From: Bacteroidia bacterium
GTDB taxonomy: Bacteria; Bacteroidota; Bacteroidia; Flavobacteriales; Flavobacteriaceae
Direction of reading: 5' to 3'
Assembly (NCBI GenBank): GCA_030428865.1
Contig: JAUIEK010000005.1
Location: forward strand, 1-64,000
Length of the DNA stretch: 64,000 nucleotides
This document shows positions 23,248 to 64,000 of this stretch, piece after piece (the stretch's first letter is position 1; each line of letters opens with the position of its first letter). The notes beneath the pieces are model-generated. The model did not search any database and had not been told where the DNA came from. It saw nothing but the letters and a program-made list of their open reading frames with translations. The position numbers and the translations under genes are program-made.

Positions 23248-23892
23248 ATGAAAATTAGATATCTCATTTTTTTATTCGTTTTTCTTTCTCAAATAACGCT
23301 AAGTCAAGAAGTAGCGATTCTTAAATATAGTGGAGGAGGCGATTGGTATTCTAATCCTACTGCCGTTCCAAACTTGATTGCTTTTACCAACAAAAACATA
23401 AAAACAACTATTAGTAAAAACCCAGAAACTGTTGCTACTAACAGCCAAGATATATTCAATTTTCCTATTATTTTTATGACTGGTCATGGCAATGTTTTCT
23501 TTTCTGATGAAGAAGCTAAAAACCTTCGAAACTATTTAACTTCTGGCGGATTTTTGCATATTTCTGATAATTACGGAATGGACAAATACATAAGAAATGA
23601 GCTAAAAAAAGTTTTTCCAGAACTGCAACTGCAGGAGATTTCAAAGAATCATCCTATTTACAATCGAACGTTCAAATTTAAAAACGGATTACCTAAAATT
23701 CATGAACACGACAGAAAACCGCCACAAGGTTTTGGACTGTTTTATCAAGGCAGATTGATTTGCTTTTATGACTATGAATCAGATTTAAGTGATGGTTGGG
23801 AAGATGCCAGCATTCACAATAATCCAGAAGAAATTCGTTTAAAAGCGCTACAAATGGGGAGTAATATTATTGAATATGTTTTTAGTAATTAA
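23248..23892 (+). CDS. DUF4159 domain-containing exported protein
   Basis: 214 residues from the ATG at 23248, giving a clean signal peptide ending near 'QITLSQ'. The mature part reads 'LKYSGGGDWYSNPTAVPNL', 'FMTGHGNVFFSDEEA', 'GGFLHISDNYG' and 'EHDRKPPQGFGLF', as in DUF4159 (a glutamine-amidotransferase-like fold without a clear catalytic Cys). It follows rsmE closely and converges on safE with a 4-bp overlap. Confidence 0.8.
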   Translation: MKIRYLIFLFVFLSQITLSQEVAILKYSGGGDWYSNPTAVPNLIAFTNKNIKTTISKNPETVATNSQDIFNFPIIFMTGHGNVFFSDEEAKNLRNYLTSGGFLHISDNYGMDKYIRNELKKVFPELQLQEISKNHPIYNRTFKFKNGLPKIHEHDRKPPQGFGLFYQGRLICFYDYESDLSDGWEDASIHNNPEEIRLKALQMGSNIIEYVFSN

Positions 23893-24587
23893 TGACAACT
23901 TTGAGCTGCATCTACAAGATTTACAATTGGCTTGGGTGATAAAAAAGGAATATCTAAACCTAAACCTCTAAAAACAAAAAGTAAACCAATAACCACAACA
24001 AAAATGGGTATTACTTTTTGAATTTTTTGACGGTTAATTTTTTGAGTTACAGATCCTAAAAACACAACGCTTGTCATTAAAGGAACTGTTCCTAATCCAA
24101 ATAAAGACATATACAGCATTCCTTCTAAAATACTTGTTGTTGTTAGTGCTCCAAAAACAGCCATATACACAAGCCCACAAGGCAGCAAACCATTTAAAAA
24201 TCCAATTGTAAAAAAGGTAGAATTCTCTTTTCTTTTAAGAGAATATCCTAACGCATTTTTAAGTTTAGCCGTTAGTTTATAGAAAGGTTTTACTACGTTA
24301 ATTTTCTTAAAAATATTAGGAAGTAACACAACGGCAATCATCATTACACCCATTATAATTGATAGCTTTTGTTGCATTCCAAAGAAATAAAAGCCTTTTC
24401 CTAAAATTCCAAAAACAGCTCCTAAAGTAGCGTATGAAAATATTCTTCCTAAATGATACAAACTAATTTGGAAATAACTTTTAAGCTTATTATTGTGGCT
24501 TATGGGAAGCATAAATGCAATAGGACCACACATTCCCATACAATGAAAACTTCCTAACAATCCAAAAATTAGTGCAGAAAAAAGCAT
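23889..24587 (-). CDS. Sulfite exporter TauE/SafE family (cytochrome oxidase maturation context)
   Basis: 232 residues, six or seven membrane helices. It starts with 'LLGSFHCMGMCGPIAFML', the Cys/Met motif of the DsbD-like TauE/SafE group that sits at the end of cbb3 oxidase clusters, and has a second 'GLLPCGLVYMA'. Likely part of copper or thiol handling for oxidase assembly. It is separated by one position from ccoH and is the last gene of the cco operon. Confidence 0.8.
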   Translation of the reverse strand: MLFSALIFGLLGSFHCMGMCGPIAFMLPISHNNKLKSYFQISLYHLGRIFSYATLGAVFGILGKGFYFFGMQQKLSIIMGVMMIAVVLLPNIFKKINVVKPFYKLTAKLKNALGYSLKRKENSTFFTIGFLNGLLPCGLVYMAVFGALTTTSILEGMLYMSLFGLGTVPLMTSVVFLGSVTQKINRQKIQKVIPIFVVVIGLLFVFRGLGLDIPFLSPKPIVNLVDAAQSCH

Positions 24588-25028
24588 TTAGTAAGTAATT
24601 TCTTTTGTAAAAAAATATCGTTTTGATTGATACATAACATCAACAGTTATGTTCCAACGACCACCCAACAAACGTTTGTCAGGCACGAGCAAATAAATAT
24701 CGGAAAATGAAATAGGCATTTCAAAATCCAATTGTTTATTAGATGGTCTGTATAGGAACACTTTTCCTTTTATTTCTGAGGTTTTCATTGATGGAGGAAA
24801 AACAATTTGTAATCCTTCTTCTGTTTTCTTTACTAGAATATCTTCTCCTAATTCACTTACATTTCTAGCTGCATTAATCTTTTGTTGATAATAGAGTTCT
24901 TGCTCGTAATACTTTTCTGTAACCAAATCATGATCATACTTCTTATCTGTATTCATTGTAATTACGAAATACATAATAAATCCTATAAATGCTACAATTG
25001 CTAAAAAAATTCCTTTACCCCAATTCAT
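24588..25028 (-). CDS. ccoH: FixH/CcoH family cbb3 oxidase assembly protein
   Basis: 146 residues with one N-terminal membrane helix (about 6-24) and 'KKYDHDLVTEKYYEQELYY' just after it, the family hallmark. A beta-rich periplasmic domain follows, with 'LLGGRWNITVDV' near the end. It is thought to help assemble or stabilise the cbb3 oxidase together with CcoG, CcoI and CcoS. Located 14 bp after ccoG. Confidence 0.85.
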   Translation of the reverse strand: MNWGKGIFLAIVAFIGFIMYFVITMNTDKKYDHDLVTEKYYEQELYYQQKINAARNVSELGEDILVKKTEEGLQIVFPPSMKTSEIKGKVFLYRPSNKQLDFEMPISFSDIYLLVPDKRLLGGRWNITVDVMYQSKRYFFTKEITY

Positions 25029-25042
25029 CTTATTTATAATTT

Positions 25043-26467
25043 TTATCGGAAACTTCTAGGCCCCAAAAAGTTGGTTGTAGTTGTTTCTATTAGTTTGTCG
25101 TTGCTAAAAACTCCTATTTTTATTTTAATTTTATCTTTTTTCAAAGAAGATCTTGGTAATTCTATAAACAATGATCCTTCGGCAATTCCTTGCTCTGGAA
25201 CGGTAAAACTATTACTCGCTACTAGCTTGATTACTCCTTCTTTGTGTGATAATAGCTTATAACTAACCTCATCAATTTTATTAGTTGTTTTATTGATTAC
25301 TTTATAAGTATATACGTTGCTGATTGTATTTTGGGCTGTTTTCTGATACAACTGACCTGGCAACCTAAGAATAGTAGCTTCTACATCATTTCGCAAGAAT
25401 AGCATTCCTGCAAGCACAAAAATCAAAATTGTTAATACCGCAGTGTATCCTTTCATTCTAGCAGTAAAGCGAAAAGGAGCTTTTTTTTCTATATTATCTA
25501 TACTTGCATATCGGATCAATCCTGTAGGTAAACCTACTCTCTCCATCATATGATCACACTCATCTATACAAGCAGTACAATTAACACACTCTAACTGCGT
25601 TCCATTTCTGATATCAATTCCTGTTGGACAGACGTGTACACACAAACTACAATCTATACAATCTCCTTTACCTGAAGCTGGCCGATCTTCTTTCTTATTA
25701 AACTTTGCGCGTCCTTTTTCTTTTTCTCCACGTTTATAATCATACGCAACAACTACTGATTGATTGTCTAACAACACACCTTGTAATCGTCCATACGGAC
25801 AAGCAATTATGCAGACTTGCTCTCGAAACCAAGTAAAAACAAAGTAAAAAACTCCTGTAAAGATAAGCAGCGACACTAATGTTCCTATATTTTCTGAAGG
25901 AGGAGAAAAAATGTAATTAATTACACGATCACTACCTATAAGATAGGCTAAAAACACATTAGCAATAAGAAACGAGATGATAAAGAACAATGTCCACTTT
26001 AAAAGTCTTTTCTTAATCTTTTCACTATTCCAAGGTTGCTTGTCTAATCGCATTTGTTTTCCTCTATCGCCTTCTATCCAATATTCAATTTTTCTAAATA
26101 TCATTTCCATAAAAATGGTTTGCGGGCAAATCCATCCGCAAAAAATCCGACCAAAAACAACAGTAAACAACGTAACAAAAACAACACCTATAATTATAGA
26201 AATGACAAATAGATGAAAGTCTTGCGGCCAAAAAGGAAATCCAAAAATGTTAAACCGTCTTTCTAAAACATTAAACAGTAAAAACTGATTTCCTTTTACT
26301 TTGATAAATGGCGCAGCGAACAGAAATAATAATAGCGCATAACTAACCCAAGTTCGGTATTTATAAAATTTACCACTTGGTTTTTTAGGATACACCCAAG
26401 ATCGCTTCCCTTCTTGGTTAACAGTACCAATACTGTCTCTAAAAGATTCATTCTTGGGTGCTTCCAT
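25043..26467 (-). CDS. ccoG: Cytochrome c oxidase accessory protein CcoG
   Basis: 474 residues, about five membrane helices. It has 'FGRIFCGWICPQTIF', two ferredoxin-type clusters ('CIDCSLCVHVCP' and 'CVNCTACIDECD') and a C-terminal Ig-like FixG domain. CcoG is known in other bacteria as a cupric reductase that feeds Cu(I) to cbb3 oxidase assembly. Located 33 bp after ccoP in the cco operon. Confidence 0.93.
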   Translation of the reverse strand: MEAPKNESFRDSIGTVNQEGKRSWVYPKKPSGKFYKYRTWVSYALLLFLFAAPFIKVKGNQFLLFNVLERRFNIFGFPFWPQDFHLFVISIIIGVVFVTLFTVVFGRIFCGWICPQTIFMEMIFRKIEYWIEGDRGKQMRLDKQPWNSEKIKKRLLKWTLFFIISFLIANVFLAYLIGSDRVINYIFSPPSENIGTLVSLLIFTGVFYFVFTWFREQVCIIACPYGRLQGVLLDNQSVVVAYDYKRGEKEKGRAKFNKKEDRPASGKGDCIDCSLCVHVCPTGIDIRNGTQLECVNCTACIDECDHMMERVGLPTGLIRYASIDNIEKKAPFRFTARMKGYTAVLTILIFVLAGMLFLRNDVEATILRLPGQLYQKTAQNTISNVYTYKVINKTTNKIDEVSYKLLSHKEGVIKLVASNSFTVPEQGIAEGSLFIELPRSSLKKDKIKIKIGVFSNDKLIETTTTNFLGPRSFR

Positions 26468-26500: not shown

Positions 26501-27364
26501 TTATTCTTCTTCCCAGATTTCTCCTTCTGCTTTCTTAGGATTAGCAGGAGTTGTTCCTTGCAGCGATAACACATAACTGGCTACTTTCTGTATATCTTGA
26601 GGTTTTAATGTTTTATTCCAAGCAATCATTCCTTTTCCAGAACGTCCTCCATTAGATACAGTATTGAATACATTTTGTATACCGCCTCCTAAAATCCAGT
26701 TTTTATCTGTTAGGTTTGGACCAATACCGCCTCCTCCATCAGGTGCATGACAACTCGCACAGTTTAAATTAAACACAGCTTTTCCTCTTTTTAAAGAAGC
26801 GTCATCTGCTAACAATTCAATATTAGCAACATCGAATAAATTAGGGGTTGATTCTTTATACTTTTCTAACTCTGCTTTTGCCGCTGCAACTTCTTTTTCA
26901 TACTCTACCGCTTGAGTATCTCCTCCTAAAACATGAAAGCGAATTAGGTAAATAGCTGCGAATAATATTGTTCCATAAAATAGATATAACCACCAAGGAG
27001 GCAAAGAGTTATCCAATTCTCTTATTCCATCGTAGTTATGATCAATGATAATCTCACTCTCTTCTTCTATTGGCTTTGATTTAGTAAATAGCTTCATCAT
27101 TTTCTTAAACCAAGCATACTTATCAATTGTTGAAGGGTCAATTCCTTCTTTTTCTAATTTTAGTTTTTCTGCTTGTTCAAGTGAAACGATATTAAGAATT
27201 TCTTTTAAAATAACTACAAGTATAAATGCAATTAAGGCTATCCATACCAACGGATTTTCATAGAGATCAAAAGGATTTTCATAGCTAACAAAAGCTTTTG
27301 TTAATCCAATAAAAGCTACTGTTAAAAAGAGAATATATATTGTTGATTGAAAATATTTTTTCAT
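26501..27364 (-). CDS. ccoP: cbb3 cytochrome c oxidase subunit III
   Basis: 287 residues. Two N-terminal membrane helices plus a third near 130-150 precede one cytochrome c domain with CASCH at about 202-206 and an axial Met near 246 ('GKGMIAW'). Only one haem site is present, unlike the two in proteobacterial CcoP. It passes electrons toward the CcoN-CcoO part. It starts 14 bp after the small ccoQ gene. Confidence 0.92.
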   Translation of the reverse strand: MKKYFQSTIYILFLTVAFIGLTKAFVSYENPFDLYENPLVWIALIAFILVVILKEILNIVSLEQAEKLKLEKEGIDPSTIDKYAWFKKMMKLFTKSKPIEEESEIIIDHNYDGIRELDNSLPPWWLYLFYGTILFAAIYLIRFHVLGGDTQAVEYEKEVAAAKAELEKYKESTPNLFDVANIELLADDASLKRGKAVFNLNCASCHAPDGGGGIGPNLTDKNWILGGGIQNVFNTVSNGGRSGKGMIAWNKTLKPQDIQKVASYVLSLQGTTPANPKKAEGEIWEEE

Positions 27365-27378
27365 GTTTTCTAAATTTA

Positions 27379-27546
27379 TTAATCTTCTAATGGTATACGA
27401 CTAACTTTCTTTATGTATGCTTTTTTAGCAGAAAAAACCCACCAACCTAATGCAACAAAAAAAGCAAAGAATATTACTAATGATATCATAGGATAAATAG
27501 CTACGTTATCTATACTTTCCATATGTCCTTTTACAAACTTTAACAT
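27379..27546 (-). CDS. ccoQ: CcoQ/FixQ-like small oxidase subunit
   Basis: 55 residues. One membrane helix (about 20-38, 'MISLVIFFAFFVALGWWVF') is followed by a basic stretch 'SAKKAYIKKVSRIPLED'. Size, single helix and position between ccoNO (3 bp upstream) and ccoP match CcoQ, the small subunit IV that stabilises the complex. Confidence 0.85.
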   Translation of the reverse strand: MLKFVKGHMESIDNVAIYPMISLVIFFAFFVALGWWVFSAKKAYIKKVSRIPLED

Positions 27547-27549
27547 GAT

Positions 27550-29751
27550 CTACTTTTTTAAACTTAATTGATCTTCTATGTCTACTAACTTAATATCTGT
27601 TCCTAATCTTTGGAGATATGCAATCAATGCAACAATCTCTCGATTTTTCATTTCTACAAAAGGCAAATTGTTTTCCTTTGCGTATTTCTTATCCTCTTCA
27701 TATGAGGACACAAAATCTGGATCGGAATATAAGTTCTCTTCTATTTTGGTTCCTTGCGCTAGCATACTTTTTTGTGCATTTGAAATATCTTCATCTGTGT
27801 AAGGAACACCCAAACTCACCATTGCTTTCATTTTATCTTCAGTATCTGATTTATCCAACTCATTTCTTATTAGCCATTGATAAGCCGGCATAATTGAGCC
27901 TGAAGAAGTACTTTGCGGATCATACATATGATTGAAATGCCAATTATCTGAGTATTTACCTCCAACTCTTAATAAATCTGGACCTGTACGTTTACTACCC
28001 CATAAGAAAGGATGATCATATACATATTCTCCTCCTTTAGAATATTCTCCATAACGCTCTACCTCACTTCTAAAAGGGCGAATCATTTGAGAATGACAAC
28101 CCACACAGCCTTCTCTAATGTAAATATCTCTTCCTTCTAATTCTAATGCGGTATATGGTTTTACACTAGTAATTGTAGGAATATTTGACTTTACCAATAA
28201 GGTTGGTATAATCTGTATAACTCCTCCTATCAAAATAGCAATTGTTGCATAGATTGTAAGCTTTACAGGTCTTCTTTCTAACCAAGCATGGTACTTTTCT
28301 GATTTTTGTCTGTATTTAGGAACTCTTTCTAAAGCAGGAGCTTCTGCTAATTCATCTTTAACTTTAGATCCTGATCTAACAGTCATTGTAATATTGTATA
28401 GCATTACAATAGATCCTACTATATACAAACTACCTCCAATTGCACGCATCCAATACATCGGAATGATCTCTGCTACTGTTTCTAAGAAGTTACCGTATGT
28501 TAAGGTTCCATCAGGATTAAATTGTTTCCACATAGAAGCTTGTACAAAACCAGCTACATACATTGGTAAAGCATAAATAACAATACCTAATGTGCCAATC
28601 CAAAAATGAGCATTTGCCAAGTTTCTAGAATATAGTTTTGTTTTAAATAGTTTTGGGAATAACCAATACAAAACACCAAACGTCATAAAACCATTCCAAG
28701 CTAATGCACCAACATGTACATGCGCTATTACCCAATCACTAAAATGTGCTATTGCGTTTACATTTTTAAGCGATAACATAGGTCCTTCAAATGTTGCCAT
28801 TCCGTAACCCGTAATAGCTACTACCATAAATTTTAATACAGGATCTGTTCTTACTTTATCCCAAGCCCCACGAAGTGTCAATAAACCGTTTATCATACCT
28901 CCCCAAGACGGAGCAATCAACATAACTGAAAAAGCTACTCCTAAGTTTTGTGCCCAATCTGGCAAAGCAGAATAGAGTAAATGATGAGGACCTGCCCAGA
29001 TATAAATAAAAATTAACGACCAAAAATGAACAATCGAAAGTCTATAAGAATAAACAGGTCTATTAGCTGCTTTTGGAACAAAGTAATACATCAATCCTAA
29101 GAAAGGAGTTGTTAAGAAAAATGCTACGGCATTATGCCCATACCACCATTGTACTAAAGCATCTTGAACTCCTGCATAAACAGAATAACTTTTTAAGAAA
29201 CTTACTGGTAATTCTAGACTATTGAATATATGTAGTACTGCAACTGTAACAAATGTGGCTAAATAAAACCATACAGCCACATACAAATGACGTTGTCTTC
29301 TTTTAAAAATAGTCCAAATCATGTTTACTCCCCAAGCAACCCAAACTAGAGCAATAGCAATATCAATTGGCCATTCTAGTTCTGCGTATTCTTTTGAAGT
29401 TGTATACCCTAAAGGAAGTGTAAGGGCAGCCACAACAATAATCAATTGCCATCCCCAAAAATTAAAATTGCTTAGAAAATCACTTGCCATTCTTGTCTTT
29501 AGCAATCGCTGTAGCGAATAATAAACTCCCGCAAAAATTGCATTTCCTACAAAAGCAAAAATAACTGCATTGGTATGCAATGGTCTTAATCTACCGAAGC
29601 TCAGCCAAGGAATTCCATCTGTTACATTTGGGAATAAAAACATGAAGGCCAGTAGCAATCCTACTGAAAACCCTACAATACCCCAAAGCATTGTTGCATA
29701 CATGAATTTTTTTACGATTTTGTTATCGTAATAAAATTGTTGCGTTTCCAT
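27550..29751 (-). CDS. ccoNO: Fused cbb3 oxidase subunits I and II (CcoN-CcoO)
   Basis: 733 residues from the ATG at 29751 ('METQQFYYDNK'); an in-frame ATG 12 bp upstream would overlap ccoS. The first about 480 residues form the 12-helix haem-copper subunit I, with His-rich 'PLHTNAVIF', 'WYGHNAVAFF' and 'HVHVGALAWNG'. The C-terminal third is CcoO with a membrane helix and one cytochrome c site, CVGCH (about residue 550), plus 'IMPAYQWL'. It is the catalytic, oxygen-reducing core. The CcoN-CcoO fusion is the usual form in Bacteroidota. Confidence 0.94.
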   Translation of the reverse strand: METQQFYYDNKIVKKFMYATMLWGIVGFSVGLLLAFMFLFPNVTDGIPWLSFGRLRPLHTNAVIFAFVGNAIFAGVYYSLQRLLKTRMASDFLSNFNFWGWQLIIVVAALTLPLGYTTSKEYAELEWPIDIAIALVWVAWGVNMIWTIFKRRQRHLYVAVWFYLATFVTVAVLHIFNSLELPVSFLKSYSVYAGVQDALVQWWYGHNAVAFFLTTPFLGLMYYFVPKAANRPVYSYRLSIVHFWSLIFIYIWAGPHHLLYSALPDWAQNLGVAFSVMLIAPSWGGMINGLLTLRGAWDKVRTDPVLKFMVVAITGYGMATFEGPMLSLKNVNAIAHFSDWVIAHVHVGALAWNGFMTFGVLYWLFPKLFKTKLYSRNLANAHFWIGTLGIVIYALPMYVAGFVQASMWKQFNPDGTLTYGNFLETVAEIIPMYWMRAIGGSLYIVGSIVMLYNITMTVRSGSKVKDELAEAPALERVPKYRQKSEKYHAWLERRPVKLTIYATIAILIGGVIQIIPTLLVKSNIPTITSVKPYTALELEGRDIYIREGCVGCHSQMIRPFRSEVERYGEYSKGGEYVYDHPFLWGSKRTGPDLLRVGGKYSDNWHFNHMYDPQSTSSGSIMPAYQWLIRNELDKSDTEDKMKAMVSLGVPYTDEDISNAQKSMLAQGTKIEENLYSDPDFVSSYEEDKKYAKENNLPFVEMKNREIVALIAYLQRLGTDIKLVDIEDQLSLKK

Positions 29752-29755
29752 AGTT

Positions 29756-29944
29756 TTAATCATTTTTATTAGTCTCGTTAGTCAATTTTTCGTTGTCTTT
29801 TACCAGTTCATCTTCAAATAGTATTCTTACAGACGGCGTATACGAATCATCATACTGACCGCTTTTTACGGAAGCAATGAAGGCTACAAAAAATACTAAT
29901 GCAACAAGAACACTCAAGGTGAGTAATAGATAAATTACGCTCAT
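29756..29944 (-). CDS. ccoS: cbb3 oxidase maturation protein CcoS
   Basis: 62 residues. One N-terminal membrane helix ('VIYLLLTLSVLVALVFFVAF') and a short acidic tail beginning 'SVKSGQYDDSYTPSVRILF' match CcoS, needed for cofactor insertion into cbb3 oxidase. First gene of the cco operon, 52 bp downstream of an FNR-like box. Confidence 0.88.
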   Translation of the reverse strand: MSVIYLLLTLSVLVALVFFVAFIASVKSGQYDDSYTPSVRILFEDELVKDNEKLTNETNKND

Positions 29945-29995
29945 AAATGCCTGATAAAATCGTAGTAAAAGTAGGTGTAGTCTTATTCTTAAAAA

Positions 29996-30009
29996 ATGAC
30001 TTTTGTCAT
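29996..30009. promoter_or_regulatory. FNR-like box before the cco operon
   Basis: ATGAC-TTTT-GTCAT is a perfect 5+5 bp palindrome with a 4-bp spacer, the layout of Crp/FNR sites. It is centred exactly 33 bp upstream of a -7-like TACTTTTA (minus strand, 29966-29973) for ccoS, so roughly at -40, a class II activator position. The same spacing recurs before ccoI. The likely regulator is the Crp/Fnr gene at 35205. Confidence 0.7.
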
Positions 30010-30020
30010 GTTTTAGAAAA

Positions 30021-31370
30021 TTATATCGTTAAAGAAAAACGATTTTCTTTTTCTTTTTTATTTAGCAAATACTGATCAAAAGCCATGCATACATTTCTAA
30101 CAAAAGGTCTTCCTTTTTCTGGAATTTTTAGATATGAATTATCCAAATATATTAATCCATCTTTTTGTAATTCTTCTAATAAATTAGCATCAATCTTAAG
30201 AGACTCAAACGAGTTTTTTTCTGTATAAAATTGACACATAAGGTCTAGAATTATTTGGCGTATTTGCAAATCTTTATTTTTTAACAAATGACCTCTAAAG
30301 ACAGGAATTTTTCCTTTATTAACTAACATTTGGTATTCTTTAACCGTTTTAACATTCTGAGCAAATGCATACCAAGAATCTGATATTGCAGACATACCCA
30401 AACCAATCATTACCTGTGTTTTTTGGGCGGTATAACCCATAAAATTTCTATGCATTGTTCTATTTTGCATTGACTGATATAACGAATCTGATTCCAATGC
30501 AAAATGATCCATTCCTACTTCTTTGTACCCTACTTTTTCCAGCAGTTTTTTACCTTCTTCATAAAGTCTTCTTTTTTCTTCATCTTTTGGTAAATCACCT
30601 TCATCAAAACCACGCTGTCCCACACCTTTTATCCAAGGAACATGCGCATAGCTGTAAAAAGAAATTCTATCTGGCAAAACGGATTTTGTCTTGCGTATGG
30701 TTTCTAAAACGTTTTCTAATGTTTGATGCGGTAAGCCAAAAACCAAATCATGACTAACAGATGCGTAACCTATTTTTCTGGCTAAATCTGTTACTTTCTT
30801 TACCTTATCAAAAGATTGAATTCTATGAATTGCCTTTTGAACTGTTTGATTATAGTCTTGAACACCAAAACTAACTCTGGTAAACCCTACATCGAACAAT
30901 GTTTGAAGATGTTTTTTTGTTGTATTATTAGGATGTCCTTCAAAACTAAACTCATAATTTGAGTGCTTAACCGATTTGGATAAAATTCCTTTTATTAATC
31001 GTTTTAACTGATTCGGCGAAAAGAAAGTTGGAGTACCTCCTCCTAAATGAATTTCTTTTATAATTGGTTTTTCATCTACCAAATTGAGATATAAATTCCA
31101 TTCTTTTAAGACAATGTTAATGTATTCTTCTTCTACTTCATGACGTTTTGTAATGTGTTTATGACAAGCGCAAAACGTGCAAAGACTTTCACAAAACGGC
31201 AAATGAATATAGACGCTTATTCCTTCTGATTGATTACTCTTAGAGTACGATTTTTGAAAGGATTGAATCCATTGTTCTTTGGAAAAACTTGCTACATCCC
31301 AAAAAGGAACTGTAGGATAACTTGTATATCTTGGTCCAGGAACATTATATTTTTGAATTAACGAACTCAT
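30021..31370 (-). CDS. hemN: Oxygen-independent coproporphyrinogen III oxidase
   Basis: 449 residues, radical-SAM enzyme. The cluster motif '[10 protein letters not shown]' (Cys60, 64, 67, 69) and '[13 protein letters not shown]' are visible, as is the N-terminal '[14 protein letters not shown]' of true HemN. It makes protoporphyrinogen without oxygen, supplying haem for the cbb3 oxidase. It overlaps deoD by 4 bp, so it is transcribed from the ccoI promoter. Confidence 0.93.
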
Positions 31371-32068
31371 TGTACAGTATCTAAAGCGATTTCTACCATT
31401 TCTTTAAATGACGTTTCTCTTTCTGATGCAGTAGTTTTAGCTCCTGAAACTAAATGATCAGATATAGTTAAAATACTTAATGCATCTACATTATGCTTTG
31501 CAGCAATTGTGTATAAACCTGCTGTTTCCATCTCCACACATAACACGCCAAATTCTGCCCATAACTTAAAGTCATAAAAATCATCAGCATAAAATGTATC
31601 AGATGTTAAGACGTTTCCTGCTTTAACATCAATATTTTTCTGCATAGCTATTTCTATTGCTTTTTTAAAGAGTTTAAAACTAGCAGTAGGGGCAAAATCT
31701 GCTCCTCGAAATCGATGTCTATTAATTGCCGAATTAGAAGATGCTGCCATAGCGATTACTATATCTCTTATTTTTACATCTTTTTGATACGATCCTGCAG
31801 ATCCTACTCTTATGAGGTTTTTGACATCGTAATCGATTATGAGTTCGTGTGCATAAATTAATGCAGAAGGAATTCCCATTCCTGTTCCTTGCACCGAAAC
31901 TTTTTTCCCTTGATAAAAACCTGTATATCCCAACATGTTTCGAACTTCATTATAGCAAATAGCTTCTTCTAAAAATGTTTCGGCTATCCATTTTGCTCTA
32001 AGAGGATCTCCAGGCAATAAAACTGTTTCTGCAATTTCTCCTTTTTTAGCCGCCAAATGTACACTCAT
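31367..32068 (-). CDS. deoD: Purine-nucleoside phosphorylase, DeoD type
   Basis: 233 residues, normal for the hexameric type. '[15 protein letters not shown]', '[19 protein letters not shown]', '[10 protein letters not shown]' and '[10 protein letters not shown]' are the phosphate and ribose site motifs. It splits purine (deoxy)nucleosides with phosphate. It overlaps deoC and hemN by 4 bp on each side, an unexpected place inside an oxidase-maturation operon. Confidence 0.93.
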
Positions 32069-32721
32069 ATCTTTTCTACTGTATTTGTTACGATTTGAAT
32101 TCCTGATGATGTTCCTATTCTATCTGCACCTGCCTCAATAAATTGAATGGCTTGTTCTGTTGTTTTAATTCCTCCAGAAGCTTTTATTTTTATTAGTTCG
32201 CCAACTACTTCTTTCATCAATTTAACATCTTCTAACACAGCTCCGCCAGTTCCAAAACCTGTGCTGGTTTTAATAAAATCTGCTTTTGCATTTACAGCTA
32301 GTTGAGAAGCCACAATGATTTCTTCTTTTGTTAAATAACAGTTTTCTAAAATCACTTTTAATACTTTATCGCCAATCATTTTTTTAATTTGCTCTATTTC
32401 ATTTCTGACATACAAATAATCACATGATTTTAAAAACCCAATGTTAATAACCATATCGATTTCGTCTGCTCCATTTTTTATCGCTTGATTTGCTTCAGCT
32501 ATTTTCGATTTTGTATCCATTGCGCCGAGAGGAAAACCAACAACTGTTGCTAATTTTACCGAACTGTTTTTTAACTGTTTTTTAGCTAGAGGAATAAAAC
32601 AGCTATTAACACAAACGGCATAAAAATCATAATCTACAGCTGTTTTACAAAGTTTTGAAATGTCATCTTTTGTTGCTGTAGGTTTTAATACTGTTTGATC
32701 TATAAATGTGTGTAATTTCAT
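32065..32721 (-). CDS. deoC: Deoxyribose-phosphate aldolase
   Basis: 218 residues, TIM barrel. '[15 protein letters not shown]', '[14 protein letters not shown]', '[13 protein letters not shown]', the Schiff-base '[11 protein letters not shown]' and 'KASGGIKT' are all present. It cleaves deoxyribose 5-phosphate to glyceraldehyde 3-phosphate and acetaldehyde. With deoD it forms a deoxynucleoside salvage pair inserted between ccoI and hemN, with 4-bp overlaps. Confidence 0.93.
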
Positions 32722-35093
32722 GACAATTGTTTTTTACCAATTAAGTTAGTAGCTACTGTTGTAAATATCACAATACTAATAGAACTCAGCGGCATTAAAA
32801 TAGCAGCCACTACAGGAGATAACTGGCCTGTTATTGCAAAGTAAAGCCCTATAATATTATAAAAAAATGATAAGACAAATGCATATTTAATTACACTCAT
32901 AGACTGTTTTGACAATTTTAATAAATTCGGAATTTTTGAAAATGATGATGCGTCTATAATGATATCGCAAGCTGGTGAAAATACATTGATGTCTTCTGAA
33001 ACCGCTAAACCAACATCACTCTGAGCAAAAGCTCCAGAATCATTAAGCCCGTCCCCTACCATTAAAACCTTCTGTTTTCTTTCTTGTAGTTTTGCAACAA
33101 AATCTAATTTATCTTGGGGTTTTTGATTGAAATACAACTTTGTTTGTGATGGTAATATATTTTTTAAATAAGTCTTTTCTCCTTCATTGTCTCCTGATAA
33201 AATAATTGTCTTGTACTCTTTATTTAGCCAACTAAACAGTTTTTCTACACCTTTTCTATATTTATTTTTGAGTGTAAACTTTCCTTGGTAAACATCATCA
33301 AAACTAATATGAACAGACGTATCAAATCCGATAGTTTCTTCTTTATGACTCACAAAAGATTCTGATCCTATTTTCACTTTGGTTTTGTTTACTGTAGCTT
33401 CTACTCCTTTACCTAAATACTCATTAAAGTTTGTAACTATTTCAGCTTCTACATCATCAAGCTCATTGTATATTCTTCTACTTAACGGATGGTTAGAAGC
33501 TCTTAAAATACTTTTTAACTTCACTTTACTTGAATGATCTAACAATTTTCCGTTGTAGATAAAATCACTCTCTTTATTGGTAGTAAGCGTTCCTGTTTTA
33601 TCAAAAATTGCAGTATCAATGTCTGCTAATTTTTCTATTGTTCTTGTGTTTTTTAAATAGATTTTTTGATATCCAAAAATCCGAAGCATATTACCAAGCG
33701 TAAATGGAGCTGCCAAAGCAATTGCACAAGGACACGCTATAATTAATACTGCAGTAAATACATTTAATGCTAAACTAGGTTTATAAAACAACCAAAAAAC
33801 TGCAGAAAAAGTAGCTATTAATAGAACAATGGTTGTAAAATGCTTGCTAATAGTATCTGTAATTGTTTGATAGGTTGTCGATTCTTTTTCACTAAACACA
33901 TCATTACTCCAAAGTTGTGTTAAATAACTTTGTGATATAGAAGAAACAGCTTCTATTTCTATGGCGTCATTGATTTGTTTACCTCCAGCAAATAGCTTTT
34001 CTCCAGAATGTTTAACTACTGGTTTTGATTCTCCTGTTACAAAACTATAATCGACTGTTGCAACTTCTGAAATTAAAATGCCATCAACAGGAATTAATTC
34101 TTCATTTCGAATCAGCAACCGATCTCCTAATTTGATATCATAAATTTCAATAATTTCTTCTTTTTCTTTTTTTATTCTGGTAATTGCAATGGGGAAATAC
34201 GATTTATAATCTCTTTCAAAAGATAAGAAACTGTAGGTTTTTTGCTGAAAGAATTTTCCTAATAACAAAAAAAACACCAATCCAGATAAACTATCTAAAA
34301 AACCCGTTCCGATATCTAAAAAAATCTCAATTGTACTTCTTACAAATAATACAGAAATTCCTAAAGCGATTGGAACATCTATGTTTAATATCTTATTTTT
34401 CAATCCTTTGTAAGCAGAGATAAAAAAATCGTTTGCCGAATAAAAAACAACTGGAAGAGAAAAGAAAAACATCAGATAACGAAAAACATACTTATACTTT
34501 TCTAACCAAAATTCAGAAATTTCGAAATACTCAGGAAAAGAAAGGAACATTATGTTTCCAAAAGCAAAGCCTGCAACGCCTAATTTGTATATCATCGATC
34601 GATTTACATTTTTAGGTTTTGCATTTAAATTATCTAAACTTATATACGGTTCGTAACCAATAGAGTTTAATAGCAGTACTATTTCTTTAAGCGAAATTTT
34701 CTTTGGATTGTATGAAAGCCTTATTTCTTTCTTTGGAAAATTAACTTGTGAGTTTATAATATCTGATTGCAGTTTGTTTAAGTTTTCTAACACCCAAATA
34801 CAAGAGCTACAATGAATATGAGGAATATAAAGTGTGATAATATGCAGCTCTTCTTCTTGAAATTCCAGCAGTTTATTCTGAATTTCTTCTTTATCCAAAT
34901 AATCATATTTCTCTGCTATTTCTTTTGGAATTGCTCCTGGATTTGATTGAAAATCGTAGTAACAAGTCATGTTGTTTTCAGATAATAACTCATACACTGT
35001 TTTACAACCATTGCAACAGAAGTTTTTATCTTGAATAGAAATACTTGAAGAATTACAAGAATTACCGCAGTGAAAACACAGTGGTTTGCTCAT
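32718..35093 (-). CDS. ccoI: Copper-translocating P-type ATPase CcoI/FixI type
   Basis: 791 residues from the ATG at 35093 ('MSKPLCFHCGNSC'); a longer frame to 35156 would cover the promoter. In order: Cys-rich metal-binding N-terminus ('CFHCG', 'CCNGCKTVYELL'), an HMA domain with 'HIHCSSCIW', eight likely membrane helices with 'CPCAIALAAPF', phosphorylation motif 'DKTGTLTTN', and 'GDGLNDSGAF'. It exports copper for cbb3 oxidase assembly. First gene of the ccoI-deoC-deoD-hemN operon. Confidence 0.92.
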   Translation of the reverse strand: MSKPLCFHCGNSCNSSSISIQDKNFCCNGCKTVYELLSENNMTCYYDFQSNPGAIPKEIAEKYDYLDKEEIQNKLLEFQEEELHIITLYIPHIHCSSCIWVLENLNKLQSDIINSQVNFPKKEIRLSYNPKKISLKEIVLLLNSIGYEPYISLDNLNAKPKNVNRSMIYKLGVAGFAFGNIMFLSFPEYFEISEFWLEKYKYVFRYLMFFFSLPVVFYSANDFFISAYKGLKNKILNIDVPIALGISVLFVRSTIEIFLDIGTGFLDSLSGLVFFLLLGKFFQQKTYSFLSFERDYKSYFPIAITRIKKEKEEIIEIYDIKLGDRLLIRNEELIPVDGILISEVATVDYSFVTGESKPVVKHSGEKLFAGGKQINDAIEIEAVSSISQSYLTQLWSNDVFSEKESTTYQTITDTISKHFTTIVLLIATFSAVFWLFYKPSLALNVFTAVLIIACPCAIALAAPFTLGNMLRIFGYQKIYLKNTRTIEKLADIDTAIFDKTGTLTTNKESDFIYNGKLLDHSSKVKLKSILRASNHPLSRRIYNELDDVEAEIVTNFNEYLGKGVEATVNKTKVKIGSESFVSHKEETIGFDTSVHISFDDVYQGKFTLKNKYRKGVEKLFSWLNKEYKTIILSGDNEGEKTYLKNILPSQTKLYFNQKPQDKLDFVAKLQERKQKVLMVGDGLNDSGAFAQSDVGLAVSEDINVFSPACDIIIDASSFSKIPNLLKLSKQSMSVIKYAFVLSFFYNIIGLYFAITGQLSPVVAAILMPLSSISIVIFTTVATNLIGKKQLS

Positions 35094-35140
35094 TTTATTA
35101 TTTGCTCTTTTACCCAATGCAAATATTGATTTGTTTTTTA

Positions 35141-35163
35141 TGATAAAAAATGACATTTATCAG
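35141..35163. promoter_or_regulatory. FNR-like box between ccoI and the crp/fnr gene
   Basis: ATGAC-ATTT-ATCAG (35150-35163) closely matches the box before ccoS, including the A-run in front. Its centre is 33 bp from a -7-like AATATTTG (minus strand, 35120-35127) for ccoI, the same distance as at ccoS. On the plus strand it is only 20 bp from a -7-like TTACTTTG (35173-35180) for the regulator, so there it may repress. An outer perfect pair TGATAAA/TTTATCA (35141-35147, 35156-35162) overlaps it. Confidence 0.7.
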
Positions 35164-35204
35164 CTTTTTTCGTTACTTTGAAACAGGCATTAATAAAATA
35201 AATC

Positions 35205-35891
35205 ATGAGCAAATGTGAACAATGTATTGTTCGTCAACTCAACTCTTTAAATGAACTTACCAAGGATGAACTCATCAGGATTTCTGCTTGCAAAACTTCA
35301 AAAGTGATTAAAAAAGGAGAAATTCTTTTTAATGAAGGAGAATACATAAATGGTGTTTTTTGTATTAAAGATGGTGTATGTAAGGTTACAAAAATGAGTG
35401 ATAATGGGAGAGATCAAATAATTAAACTCGTAAAAAAAGGAGATTTATTGGGTGAAAGAAGTTTAATTTCGGAAGAAGCAGCCAACTTACGAGCAACTGC
35501 CTTAAATGATTTAGAAGTTTGTTTTATTCCAAAAGAAGAGATTGTAAAAGATTTAAAGCAGAATAATAATTTTACAATGAGCATGCTAAAAGAACTAGCT
35601 GTTTCATTACGAGAAGCCGATGATGTTATTGTAGATATGGCTCAAAAAACAGTAAAACAACGTTTGGCAGAAACTTTGCTTTACTTGCATAATAATTATA
35701 CAAAAACCGAAAATGGTGCTTTAGAAATACAGCTTTCTAGAGATGATATTGCTAGTATTATTGGAACCGCTACCGAATCTGCAATTCGTTTGCTATCTAG
35801 CTTTAAAAAAGACGAACTCATTAAACTTAAAGGAAAAGATATTTTTATTTTAAATCCTGAAAAGCTGAAGAAAATTGCCGAAGGGTTTTAA
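35205..35891 (+). CDS. Crp/Fnr family transcriptional regulator
   Basis: 228 residues. An N-terminal Cys pair 'CEQC' (4, 7) and Cys29, plus Cys53 and Cys59, could hold an oxygen-sensing iron-sulfur cluster as in FNR. Then come the cyclic-nucleotide-like beta-barrel (about 25-140) and a C-terminal winged helix with 'LSRDDIASIIGTATESAIRLL'. Divergent from ccoI with a shared FNR-like box, so it probably activates both oxidase operons when oxygen is low. Autorepression is inferred from the box position. Confidence 0.85.
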   Translation: MSKCEQCIVRQLNSLNELTKDELIRISACKTSKVIKKGEILFNEGEYINGVFCIKDGVCKVTKMSDNGRDQIIKLVKKGDLLGERSLISEEAANLRATALNDLEVCFIPKEEIVKDLKQNNNFTMSMLKELAVSLREADDVIVDMAQKTVKQRLAETLLYLHNNYTKTENGALEIQLSRDDIASIIGTATESAIRLLSSFKKDELIKLKGKDIFILNPEKLKKIAEGF

Positions 35892-63607: not shown

Positions 63608-64000
63608 TTAAGCAACCTCTTTACTTTTCACGATTCGTTTTCTTATTCTACTTAGAGATTGTGGCGTAACCCCTAAGTAAGAAGCAATATAGTGATTTGG
63701 AACTCTCCTTAATATTTCTGGTTTGTTTTCTAACAAATTCATATATCTTTCTTCTGGTGAGTTCACAATAAAAGAGGTTATTGTTTGGTAGCAATCAATT
63801 AAATTGTTTTCTAACTGATCTTTTAAAAAGCTGTTAAGTTTTGGAACTTCTCTTATTATTTTATCTAAACCTTCTTTAGTACACATAACAACCTCTCCAT
63901 CTTCAACACAATCTATATGAAATTGTGATGGTTGTTTTCTAAAAAAACTCTCGTGAGAAATTACAAATTCATCTTCTAAAAATAGATTAATTGTTTTTTC
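63608..64000 (-). CDS. Crp/Fnr family regulator, 5' end outside the window
   Basis: The frame is open to the right window edge. From 64000 it reads 'EKTINLFLEDEFVISHESFF' and continues through the beta-barrel into a C-terminal winged helix 'VPNHYIASYLGVTPQSLSRI'. About 131 residues are visible, the C-terminal two thirds of a cyclic-nucleotide-binding-type regulator. An internal Met at 63886 is not the start. It differs clearly from the regulator at 35205. Confidence 0.82.
   Translation of the reverse strand, partial: EKTINLFLEDEFVISHESFFRKQPSQFHIDCVEDGEVVMCTKEGLDKIIREVPKLNSFLKDQLENNLIDCYQTITSFIVNSPEERYMNLLENKPEILRRVPNHYIASYLGVTPQSLSRIRKRIVKSKEVA

Follow-up and report, generated by a model that had tools for sequence, protein, structure and literature searches.

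Boxes at a fixed distance from -7 elements predict class II control of the cco genes by a Crp/Fnr-family protein in a Flavobacteriaceae bacterium

Introduction

Several described proteins of the Crp/Fnr family resemble the one dealt with in this work. FNR of the E. coli type has its cluster ligands at C20-x2-C23-x5-C29 and C122, and FixK or FixK2 of rhizobia activates the cbb3 oxidase operon fixNOQP whilst being itself controlled, FixK by FixLJ. Here we analyse the cco (cbb3 oxidase) locus of a Bacteroidia bacterium of the Flavobacteriaceae (assembly GCA_030428865.1, 2.26 Mb in 9 contigs), where a Crp/Fnr-family gene starting at 35205 is accompanied by two FNR-like boxes, one before ccoS and the other before ccoI. 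"The window" is the whole stretch analysed, i.e., the 64,000 nucleotides at positions 1 to 64,000 of contig JAUIEK010000005.1, forward strand.

The 35205 protein is like FNR in its Crp/Fnr fold (the A. fischeri FNR sequence matches with an E-value of about 1e-18), in an N-terminal CxxC and a Cys106 at ligand places, in half-sites separated by N4, in a predicted site centre of -41.5 and in its respiratory targets. It is unlike FNR in lacking a cysteine at the third ligand place and having an invariant Cys53 instead, in its box (ATGAY-N4-RTCAT here, TTGAT-N4-ATCAA in FNR), in the accompanying -7 element, which is the Bacteroidota TAnnTTTG, and in the recognition helix, which reads T190-E191-S-A-I194-R195 as opposed to V-E-T-I-S-R. 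With FixK it shares being a Crp/Fnr protein that is predicted to activate a cbb3 operon and to be itself controlled, whereas its own cysteines and its different box set it apart.

A further likeness is that to HcpR, a nitric oxide-responsive regulator, whose consensus in delta-proteobacteria is given in PMC1274295 as wyTTGACnnnnGTCAArw; the TGAC-N4-GTCA core is common to both, whereas here the outer base is A and not T, and the neighbours are cco genes, with ccoI divergent from the regulator in 75 of 80 loci. By sequence, the best solved relative is P. gingivalis Crp-Pg (2GAU, E 1.7e-28), in a match omitting the first 34 residues of the 35205 protein and hence Cys4, Cys7 and Cys29; Crp-Pg has been described as regulating biofilm and virulence independently of cAMP. 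For a bioreactor, homologs in Flavobacteriales have been assigned to MalR-like carbon sensing (PMC8510549), and are not equated here with the 35205 protein. In F. psychrophilum, oxygen limitation is already reported to induce the cbb3 oxidase (PMC9723704). A description of a Bacteroidota FNR motif, box or regulon was not found among the listed titles and abstract openings and the few passages covered of an open-access library, a scope outside which most subscription-journal papers lie.

Results and Discussion

Box geometry and predicted class II activation

The initial annotation had recognised an ATGAC-N4-RTCAK box before ccoS (box 1) and another before ccoI (box 2), each centred 33 bp from a -7-like element, with box 2 also 20 bp from the -7-like element of the divergent regulator gene; checked letter by letter, its coordinates and distances (33.0, 33.0 and 20.0 bp) are exact (Table 1). 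The window holds four cores of the form TGAYNNNNRTCA; of these, only boxes 1 and 2 are accompanied, 33 bp away, by a -7-like element with no more than one mismatch. The background frequency of these elements is 1.2% of window positions and 9 of 368 positions near cores.

A site centred at -41.5 is in the position of a class II activator. In the start-site map of F. psychrophilum (PMC9723704), the -7 box spans -12 to -5, and this, combined with the 33-bp spacing, sets the box centre at -41.5 for both ccoS and ccoI, the start position being taken from F. psychrophilum and not from the source organism. The predicted starts are then 29961 for ccoS, 35115 for ccoI and 35185 for the regulator, with leaders of 17, 22 and 20 nt.

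We infer that the Crp/Fnr protein of the 35205 gene binds both boxes, and that a dimer centred at -41.5 would replace the -33 element and touch RNA polymerase. At low oxygen, a signal presumably received through an iron-sulphur (Fe-S) cluster would jointly switch on the ccoS-NOQPGH and ccoI-deoC-deoD-hemN operons. Box 2 is predicted from its position to be at once the class II site of ccoI and an occluding site for the regulator. Activation of both operons, as foreseen in the initial annotation, is well supported in silico by a 33-bp distance that is fixed in Flavobacteriaceae relatives, and we regard class II activation of both gene sets by the 35205 protein as quite probable; oxygen would be the likely signal, through a putative cluster.

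Conservation of the geometry in relatives

The evidence carrying this reading comes from 80 named Flavobacteriaceae loci (L148-L227), in each of which the box was picked by its own score, the -7 element and its distance playing no part in the choice. In the 71 loci where ccoS was found, a box precedes it in all but L215, and the -7 element lies at 33 bp in 70 of these 70, with an exact TAnnTTTG in 67. Likewise, all 75 loci where ccoI is the divergent neighbour of the regulator have a box. When one mismatch is allowed, the ccoI -7 element is 33 bp away in 73 of them, 34 bp in L164 and 32 bp in L176. Within the genus, 23 stretches around the regulator were compared, together with eight from other families. 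Of the 23, 21 preserve the ccoI-hemN and ccoS-NO gene order (L049 has ccoI and hemN without ccoS, and L062 the regulator only), and all 21 with ccoS have the box, followed at 33 bp by an exact TAnnTTTG in 20 and by one with a single mismatch in L047.

Column information approaches 2 bits in the box core and the -7 element and falls to 0.0-0.4 bits between -24 and -19, so the promoters compared have diverged; the box columns are biased by the score-based choice, and the -7 element, the spacing and a TTTT tract at -33 to -30 are free of this bias. That tract, at 29991-29994 in the window, one base 3′ of box 1, occupies the place where a -33 element of the ccoS promoter would lie, and is nearly invariant (T in 100, 98, 88 and 98% of 70 loci). 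The -7 elements of the two operons differ in their first letter: the ccoS element keeps the first T of TAnnTTTG in 70/70 loci, and that of ccoI (35120-35127 and L148-L227) is without it in 72 of 75 (A in 33, G in 31, C in 8). A conserved weak ccoI promoter may raise the dependence of ccoI on the activator.

The frequency of the motif in the source genome lends something to the idea of chance palindromes at a chance spacing, as there is no clear enrichment in either the window or the genome. In the window, ATGACNNNNGTCAT occurs 24 times with at most two mismatches where 23.07 are expected, box 2 being among the two-mismatch matches, and box 1 is the only zero-mismatch ATGACNNNNGTCAT in the genome among the matches listed. 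Throughout the genome, the bare box is not enriched (45 places with at most one mismatch, 60 in the control), and the full geometry with at most two mismatches gives 151 matches against 131 for the reversed control, which is no clear excess. No place has the full geometry with zero mismatches and nine have it with one, namely the two cco sites and seven others lying in open frames of 224-1013 codons; box 2 is likewise inside an open frame, the upstream extension of ccoI, yet relatives align from 35093. The motif was therefore not discoverable from the source genome alone, where only the two cco sites are convincing and where the regulon may consist of just the two cco operons, and the evidence of the window by itself is at most suggestive. 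The boxes rise above chance because they are conserved in relatives, and with the spacing fixed in 70/70 (ccoS) and 73/75 (ccoI) named loci we consider the chance explanation negligible.

Besides the want of a clear excess of the full geometry in the source genome, several observations weigh against class II activation of both gene sets. Each of the three -7 elements of the window has one mismatch to TAnnTTTG. Support thins outside the Flavobacteriaceae: among the eight other-family stretches, two have ccoI and the cco operon (L071, L075), four have ccoI adjoining the regulator (L070, L074, L076, L077) and two have neither (L072, L073). Of the two ccoS loci among them, L075 lacks a good box and L071 has a box whose -7 element, 33 bp away, carries one mismatch, and of the six ccoI loci, the ccoI-side -7 element lies at 33 bp in L071 and L076, at 32 bp in L077 and is missing in L070, L074 and L075. 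Even within the family, the spacing varies among 24 further loci in which ccoI adjoins the regulator (L228-L251): the ccoI element is 33 bp away in 16, 34 bp in four and 32 bp in one, and is missing in three, and L251 has only a poor box. Finally, related sequences are not independent.

Spacing within the genus and association with the regulator across the phylum

A scan of 40 same-genus genomes with ATGAYNNNNRTCAT-N{7,37}-TANNTTTG gave 198 matches, and its reversed control 40. A gap of 22, i.e., 33 bp between centres, accounts for 93 of the 150 matches listed, followed by 32 bp (8) and 34 bp (7), all other spacings having at most five each. Promoters of class I, dependent on Crp/Fnr sites near -61.5 or further upstream in phase, were rejected, since gaps of 36-66 (47-77 bp) in the same 40 genomes gave 62 matches against 59 in the control, without a peak near -61.5. 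If the class II geometry alone is used, as these counts from one genus suggest, this would inform on the contact of the activator with the Bacteroidota polymerase.

In 296 Bacteroidota genomes, ATGAY-N4-RTCAT followed by N22 and TAnnTTTG has 196 exact sites in 54 genomes, the reversed control having 4. The motif had been put forward in the initial annotation as usable for a Bacteroidota regulon and worth a genome scan at 33 bp from TAnnTTTG, and both proposals hold in relatives, with 196 sites (176 in genomes where the regulator has a close relative) against 4, and with plausible targets after 40 hand-picked same-genus sites; the source genome has no clear excess. The precision of this 'box, 22 bases, TAnnTTTG' rule suffices for predicting low-oxygen promoters, along with their starts, in flavobacteria, and would make a conserved low-oxygen switch readable from sequence.

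A close relative (E at most 1e-60) is present in 58 of the 296 genomes, and exact sites occur in 41 of these (176 sites) as opposed to 13 of the 238 others (20 sites). In six of the 58, the match to the regulator begins at residue 16 and so misses the N-terminal cysteines; once these six are left out, the counts become 36 of 52 genomes (162 sites) versus 18 of 244 (34 sites). Shared ancestry inflates any p-value for this association, and none is relied upon.

The sites in the 13 genomes without a close relative, e.g., before ccoNO in G035, count against the neighbouring gene as the sole source of the reader, as paralogs may read the same box. It could then be argued that the boxes of the source organism too are read by another Crp/Fnr protein, the more so as its genome has two additional open reading frames (ORFs) with a cyclic nucleotide-binding (cNMP) domain, one of them over the cut-off. 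Neither of the two, however, has a Crp helix-turn-helix (HTH) match at E 0.001, the 35205 gene being the only one in the genome with both domains over cut-off, and the sites track the close relative strongly across the 296 genomes, so that we hold another reader to be very improbable. A second cNMP-binding ORF of about 200 amino acids (aa), over the Pfam cut-off and with no Crp HTH match at E 0.001, lies at window positions 63851-64000 (G000:C1:63851-64105, minus strand).

Classical TTGAY boxes at the same distance have 61 sites in 43 of the 296 genomes, and 0 in the reversed control. In the 58 genomes with a close relative, exact 33-bp sites are 176 with ATGAY and 25 with TTGAY; the latter being above control, there seems to be another set of Crp/Fnr sites. 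G330, of the same phylum and another class, has more ATGAY sites than any other of the 296 genomes, with 18 exact ATGAY and 4 TTGAY class II sites. In G029, of the same genus (G029:C1:2022329-2022502 and G029:C1:2017294), the match to the regulator is confined to the first 58 residues, at 69% identity, and eight of ten sites among the matches listed keep the 33-bp spacing; perhaps the regulator is broken or divergent there and paralogs are taking over. Three 33-bp sites (G016:C1:236234, G034:C1:80021 and G029:C1:2791012) lie just 3′ of more distant Crp/Fnr-type genes, pointing away from them, and in G061 a site nearly identical to them in sequence is followed by the gene of a universal stress protein (L111).

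Predicted targets downstream of further 33-bp sites

Forty of the 93 33-bp sites among the matches listed in the 40 same-genus genomes, hand-picked to exclude ccoS, were followed to the first ATG-started ORF of at least 60 aa, which was found for 38 of them (none for L122 and L124), and 27 of the 38 proteins were scanned. In five of the 38 (L112, L113, L115, L138, L144), 156-218 nt separate the predicted start from the beginning of the ORF. Copper nitrite reductase (nirK) follows the site in L108 (over cut-off), with proteins of the same similarity group and like length in L114, L119 and L141, and nrfH follows in L112 (over cut-off), with L144 in the same similarity group. Other sites precede hemA (L140), phosphate acetyltransferase pta (L135), the universal stress protein usp (L111, and weakly L143), OmpW (L120, with L131 in the same similarity group), a ribosome hibernation-type protein (L126), a cytochrome c (L132), a PAS protein (L129), an alginate-export-like porin (L125) and ccoNO (L138, identified by its first residues only). 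Less telling targets are ArsR, a TPMT-type methyltransferase, a glyoxalase and an MlaE permease. The scans gave no Pfam family for L115, L118, L121, L123, L127, L128 and L133, and no NCBIfam family for L137 and L142. A family of small proteins (113-115 aa) stands directly downstream of 33-bp sites in three genomes (L123, L127, L139); the two members scanned have no Pfam match.

Taken together, these genes fit a response to oxygen limitation. In F. psychrophilum, the cbb3 oxidase rises strongly under oxygen limitation, and so do heme synthesis enzymes, according to the expression results of PMC9723704; here, hemN lies within the ccoI gene set, and hemA comes after a site in a relative (L140).

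The regulator and its relation to FNR

The 35205 protein (228 aa) belongs to the Crp/Fnr fold by its PF00027, PF13545 and PF00325 matches over cut-off and by fold comparison; its name, as well as those of ccoS and ccoI, was rightly assigned from the start, as Pfam and NCBIfam matches confirm. Its closest named relatives are from metagenome-assembled genomes of a Flavobacteriaceae (79% identity) and an uncultured Flavobacterium (77%), followed by Tenacibaculum (70-73%) and then Polaribacter. It has six cysteines, at 4, 7, 29, 53, 59 and 106. Cys4, Cys7, Cys53 and Cys106 are kept in 118, 118, 119 and 118 of 119 relatives of at least 55% identity (one row being short at Cys106) and in all 21 below 55%, eight of which are still of the same family. 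Cys29 is present in 115 of the 119. In 20 of the 21 more distant rows its position is taken by S, H, E, I, Q or L (one row is not shown), and 11 of the 21 have a cysteine three residues beyond. Cys4, Cys7 and Cys106 align with ligand cysteines of A. fischeri FNR.

Orthodox FNR of the E. coli type was rejected on its cysteine set, its box and the score of the NCBIfam Fnr model (NF008365, 92 bits, short of the cut-off of 228), the box being judged at the sequence level by the predominance of ATGAY over TTGAY given above. The FNR label of the initial annotation thus stands for the way in which the protein is predicted to work, and fails as strict membership on those same three grounds. The outer base of the box may have its counterpart in the recognition helix, where Thr190, kept in 114 of the 119 and 21 of the 21 relatives, is by our alignment presumably the equivalent of CRP residue 180, a Val in FNR. 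In PMC1274295, CRP residue 180 is connected with the outermost base of the half-site.

Our tentative proposal, which we put clearly below an even chance, is an FNR of the Bacteroidota's own: a [4Fe-4S] sensor held by C4, C7, C53 and C106, in which the third ligand would have moved from the N-terminal loop to Cys53 of the beta-barrel, recognising ATGAY by way of the Thr, acting in class II only on TAnnTTTG and governing a low-oxygen regulon in several families of the phylum. Cys53 is present in 140/140 distinct relatives (the 119 and the 21), and by the topology of the Crp/Fnr barrel the Cys53- and Cys106-bearing strands should be neighbours. Two observations tell against the cluster: the third FNR cysteine place (Asn13 here) is N, S or T in 140/140 distinct relatives, and hypoxia-induced genes, which are not named in the passage of PMC9723704 that mentions them, also rise on iron scarcity in F. 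psychrophilum, which is not easily reconciled with an activator needing an Fe-S cluster.

Both observations are in favour of a different signal, with the same boxes, protein and class II action, where nitric oxide, heme or thiol redox would act through the conserved cysteines in place of oxygen at an Fe-S cluster. To these are added nirK and nrfH downstream of 33-bp sites in relatives and the binding of heme by P. gingivalis HcpR and PgRsp, as stated in PMC12040651. Nevertheless, the targets in the source genome are cbb3 genes and hemN, the cbb3 oxidase being raised by oxygen limitation in F. psychrophilum (PMC9723704, same results), and four near-universal cysteines is the number that a [4Fe-4S] cluster needs; such a signal is rather unlikely in our view. 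The cysteine pattern poses a direct biochemical question of how oxygen is sensed in these bacteria.

The predicted structure has a mean predicted local distance difference test (pLDDT) of 75.1, and residues 1-30 average 49-55, so that cysteine distances could not be judged. The fold search of this model ranks a cAMP-type regulator first (4cyd, Z 21.3, 217 residues aligned, 3.0 Å) and A. fischeri FNR lower (5e44, Z 18.0, 220 aligned, root-mean-square deviation 3.7 Å), a ranking which does not decide the family.

Box 2 and the promoter of the regulator

Box 2 is centred at -28.5 relative to the regulator start here, and at -27.5 where its distance from the regulator -7 element is 19 bp, which is the case in 63 of the 75 named loci; in these it covers about -34 to -21 of the regulator promoter. 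A dimer on box 2 would cover the -33 region and the spacer of that promoter and so block its own gene. The repression of the regulator predicted in the initial annotation is borne out in part: the box lies over the promoter in those 63 loci, and is absent from it in eight long-intergenic loci and in seven of the eight loci where ccoI was not found.

These last loci bring in another explanation, namely that box 2 serves ccoI only, its place in the regulator promoter arising as a by-product of the shortness of the intergenic region between the divergent genes; autorepression would then be slight or absent. In L240 and L244-L250, which have 141-150 bp between the box and the start of the regulator gene, the ccoI-side distance stays at 33 or 34 bp and the regulator-side one does not, and where ccoI was not found beside the regulator (L252-L255, L177, L219, L062), there is no box upstream of the latter, so the box mostly follows ccoI. 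In L243 (G241:C6), the box is 65 bp before the regulator and 33 bp from a TAnnTTTG both ways, which would predict activation of ccoI and self-activation. On the other side stand the 19-bp distance kept in most compact loci, L158, where the box and both spacings are kept though ccoI was not found, and the consideration that a dimer bound at -27.5 should block the polymerase whatever selected the box. We put the by-product explanation a little short of an even chance, and autorepression, plausible for compact loci, at about even to moderately likely.

Gene content of the locus

The minus strand carries two gene sets, ccoI-deoC-deoD-hemN (35093 to 30021) and ccoS-ccoNO-Q-P-G-H-DsbD_2 (29944 to 23889), with the regulator gene divergent from ccoI and 11 bp between the end of hemN and box 1.

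Table 1. Boxes, -7-like elements and genes of the cco locus (window coordinates)
Feature	Position	Strand	Basis or remark
Box 1, ATGACTTTTGTCAT	29996..30009 (centre 30002.5)		ATGAC-N4-GTCAT, perfect palindrome; predicted class II site of the ccoS promoter
ccoS -7-like element, TACTTTTA	29966..29973 (centre 29969.5)	-	33.0 bp from box 1
Box 2, ATGACATTTATCAG	35150..35163 (centre 35156.5)		ATGAC-N4-ATCAG, between ccoI and regulator
ccoI -7-like element, AATATTTG	35120..35127	-	33.0 bp from box 2
Regulator -7-like element, TTACTTTG	35173..35180	+	20.0 bp from box 2
Crp/Fnr-family regulator, 228 aa	35205..35891	+	PF00027, PF13545, PF00325
ccoI, copper P-type ATPase, first gene of operon 2	32718..35093	-	domain match and relatives
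deoC, within operon 2	32065..32721	-	TIGR00126
deoD, within operon 2	31367..32068	-	TIGR00107
hemN, oxygen-independent coproporphyrinogen oxidase, last gene of operon 2	30021..31370	-	TIGR00538
ccoS, cbb3 oxidase maturation, first gene of operon 1	29756..29944	-	PF03597, TIGR00847
ccoNO, fused cbb3 subunits I and II	27550..29763	-	family match
Small ORF at the ccoQ place	27379..27546	-	position and conserved order; name ccoQ presumed, unscanned
ccoP-like cytochrome c subunit	26501..27364	-	position and conserved order; name from context, unscanned
ccoG-like ferredoxin protein	25043..26467	-	position and conserved order; name from context, unscanned
ccoH (FixH)	24588..25028	-	PF05751
DsbD_2 membrane protein, after ccoH	23889..24587	-	PF13386

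The start of ccoI is taken at 35093, from which relatives align, and not at the 35156 of a longer ORF overlapping box 2. This longest reading of the gene (the extension being 35094-35156) starts inside box 2, and automatic annotation may in this way hide the promoter. The two genes of deoxyribose metabolism, deoC and deoD (31367-32721), lie between ccoI and hemN, and one or both are found there in 14 of the 23 same-genus stretches.

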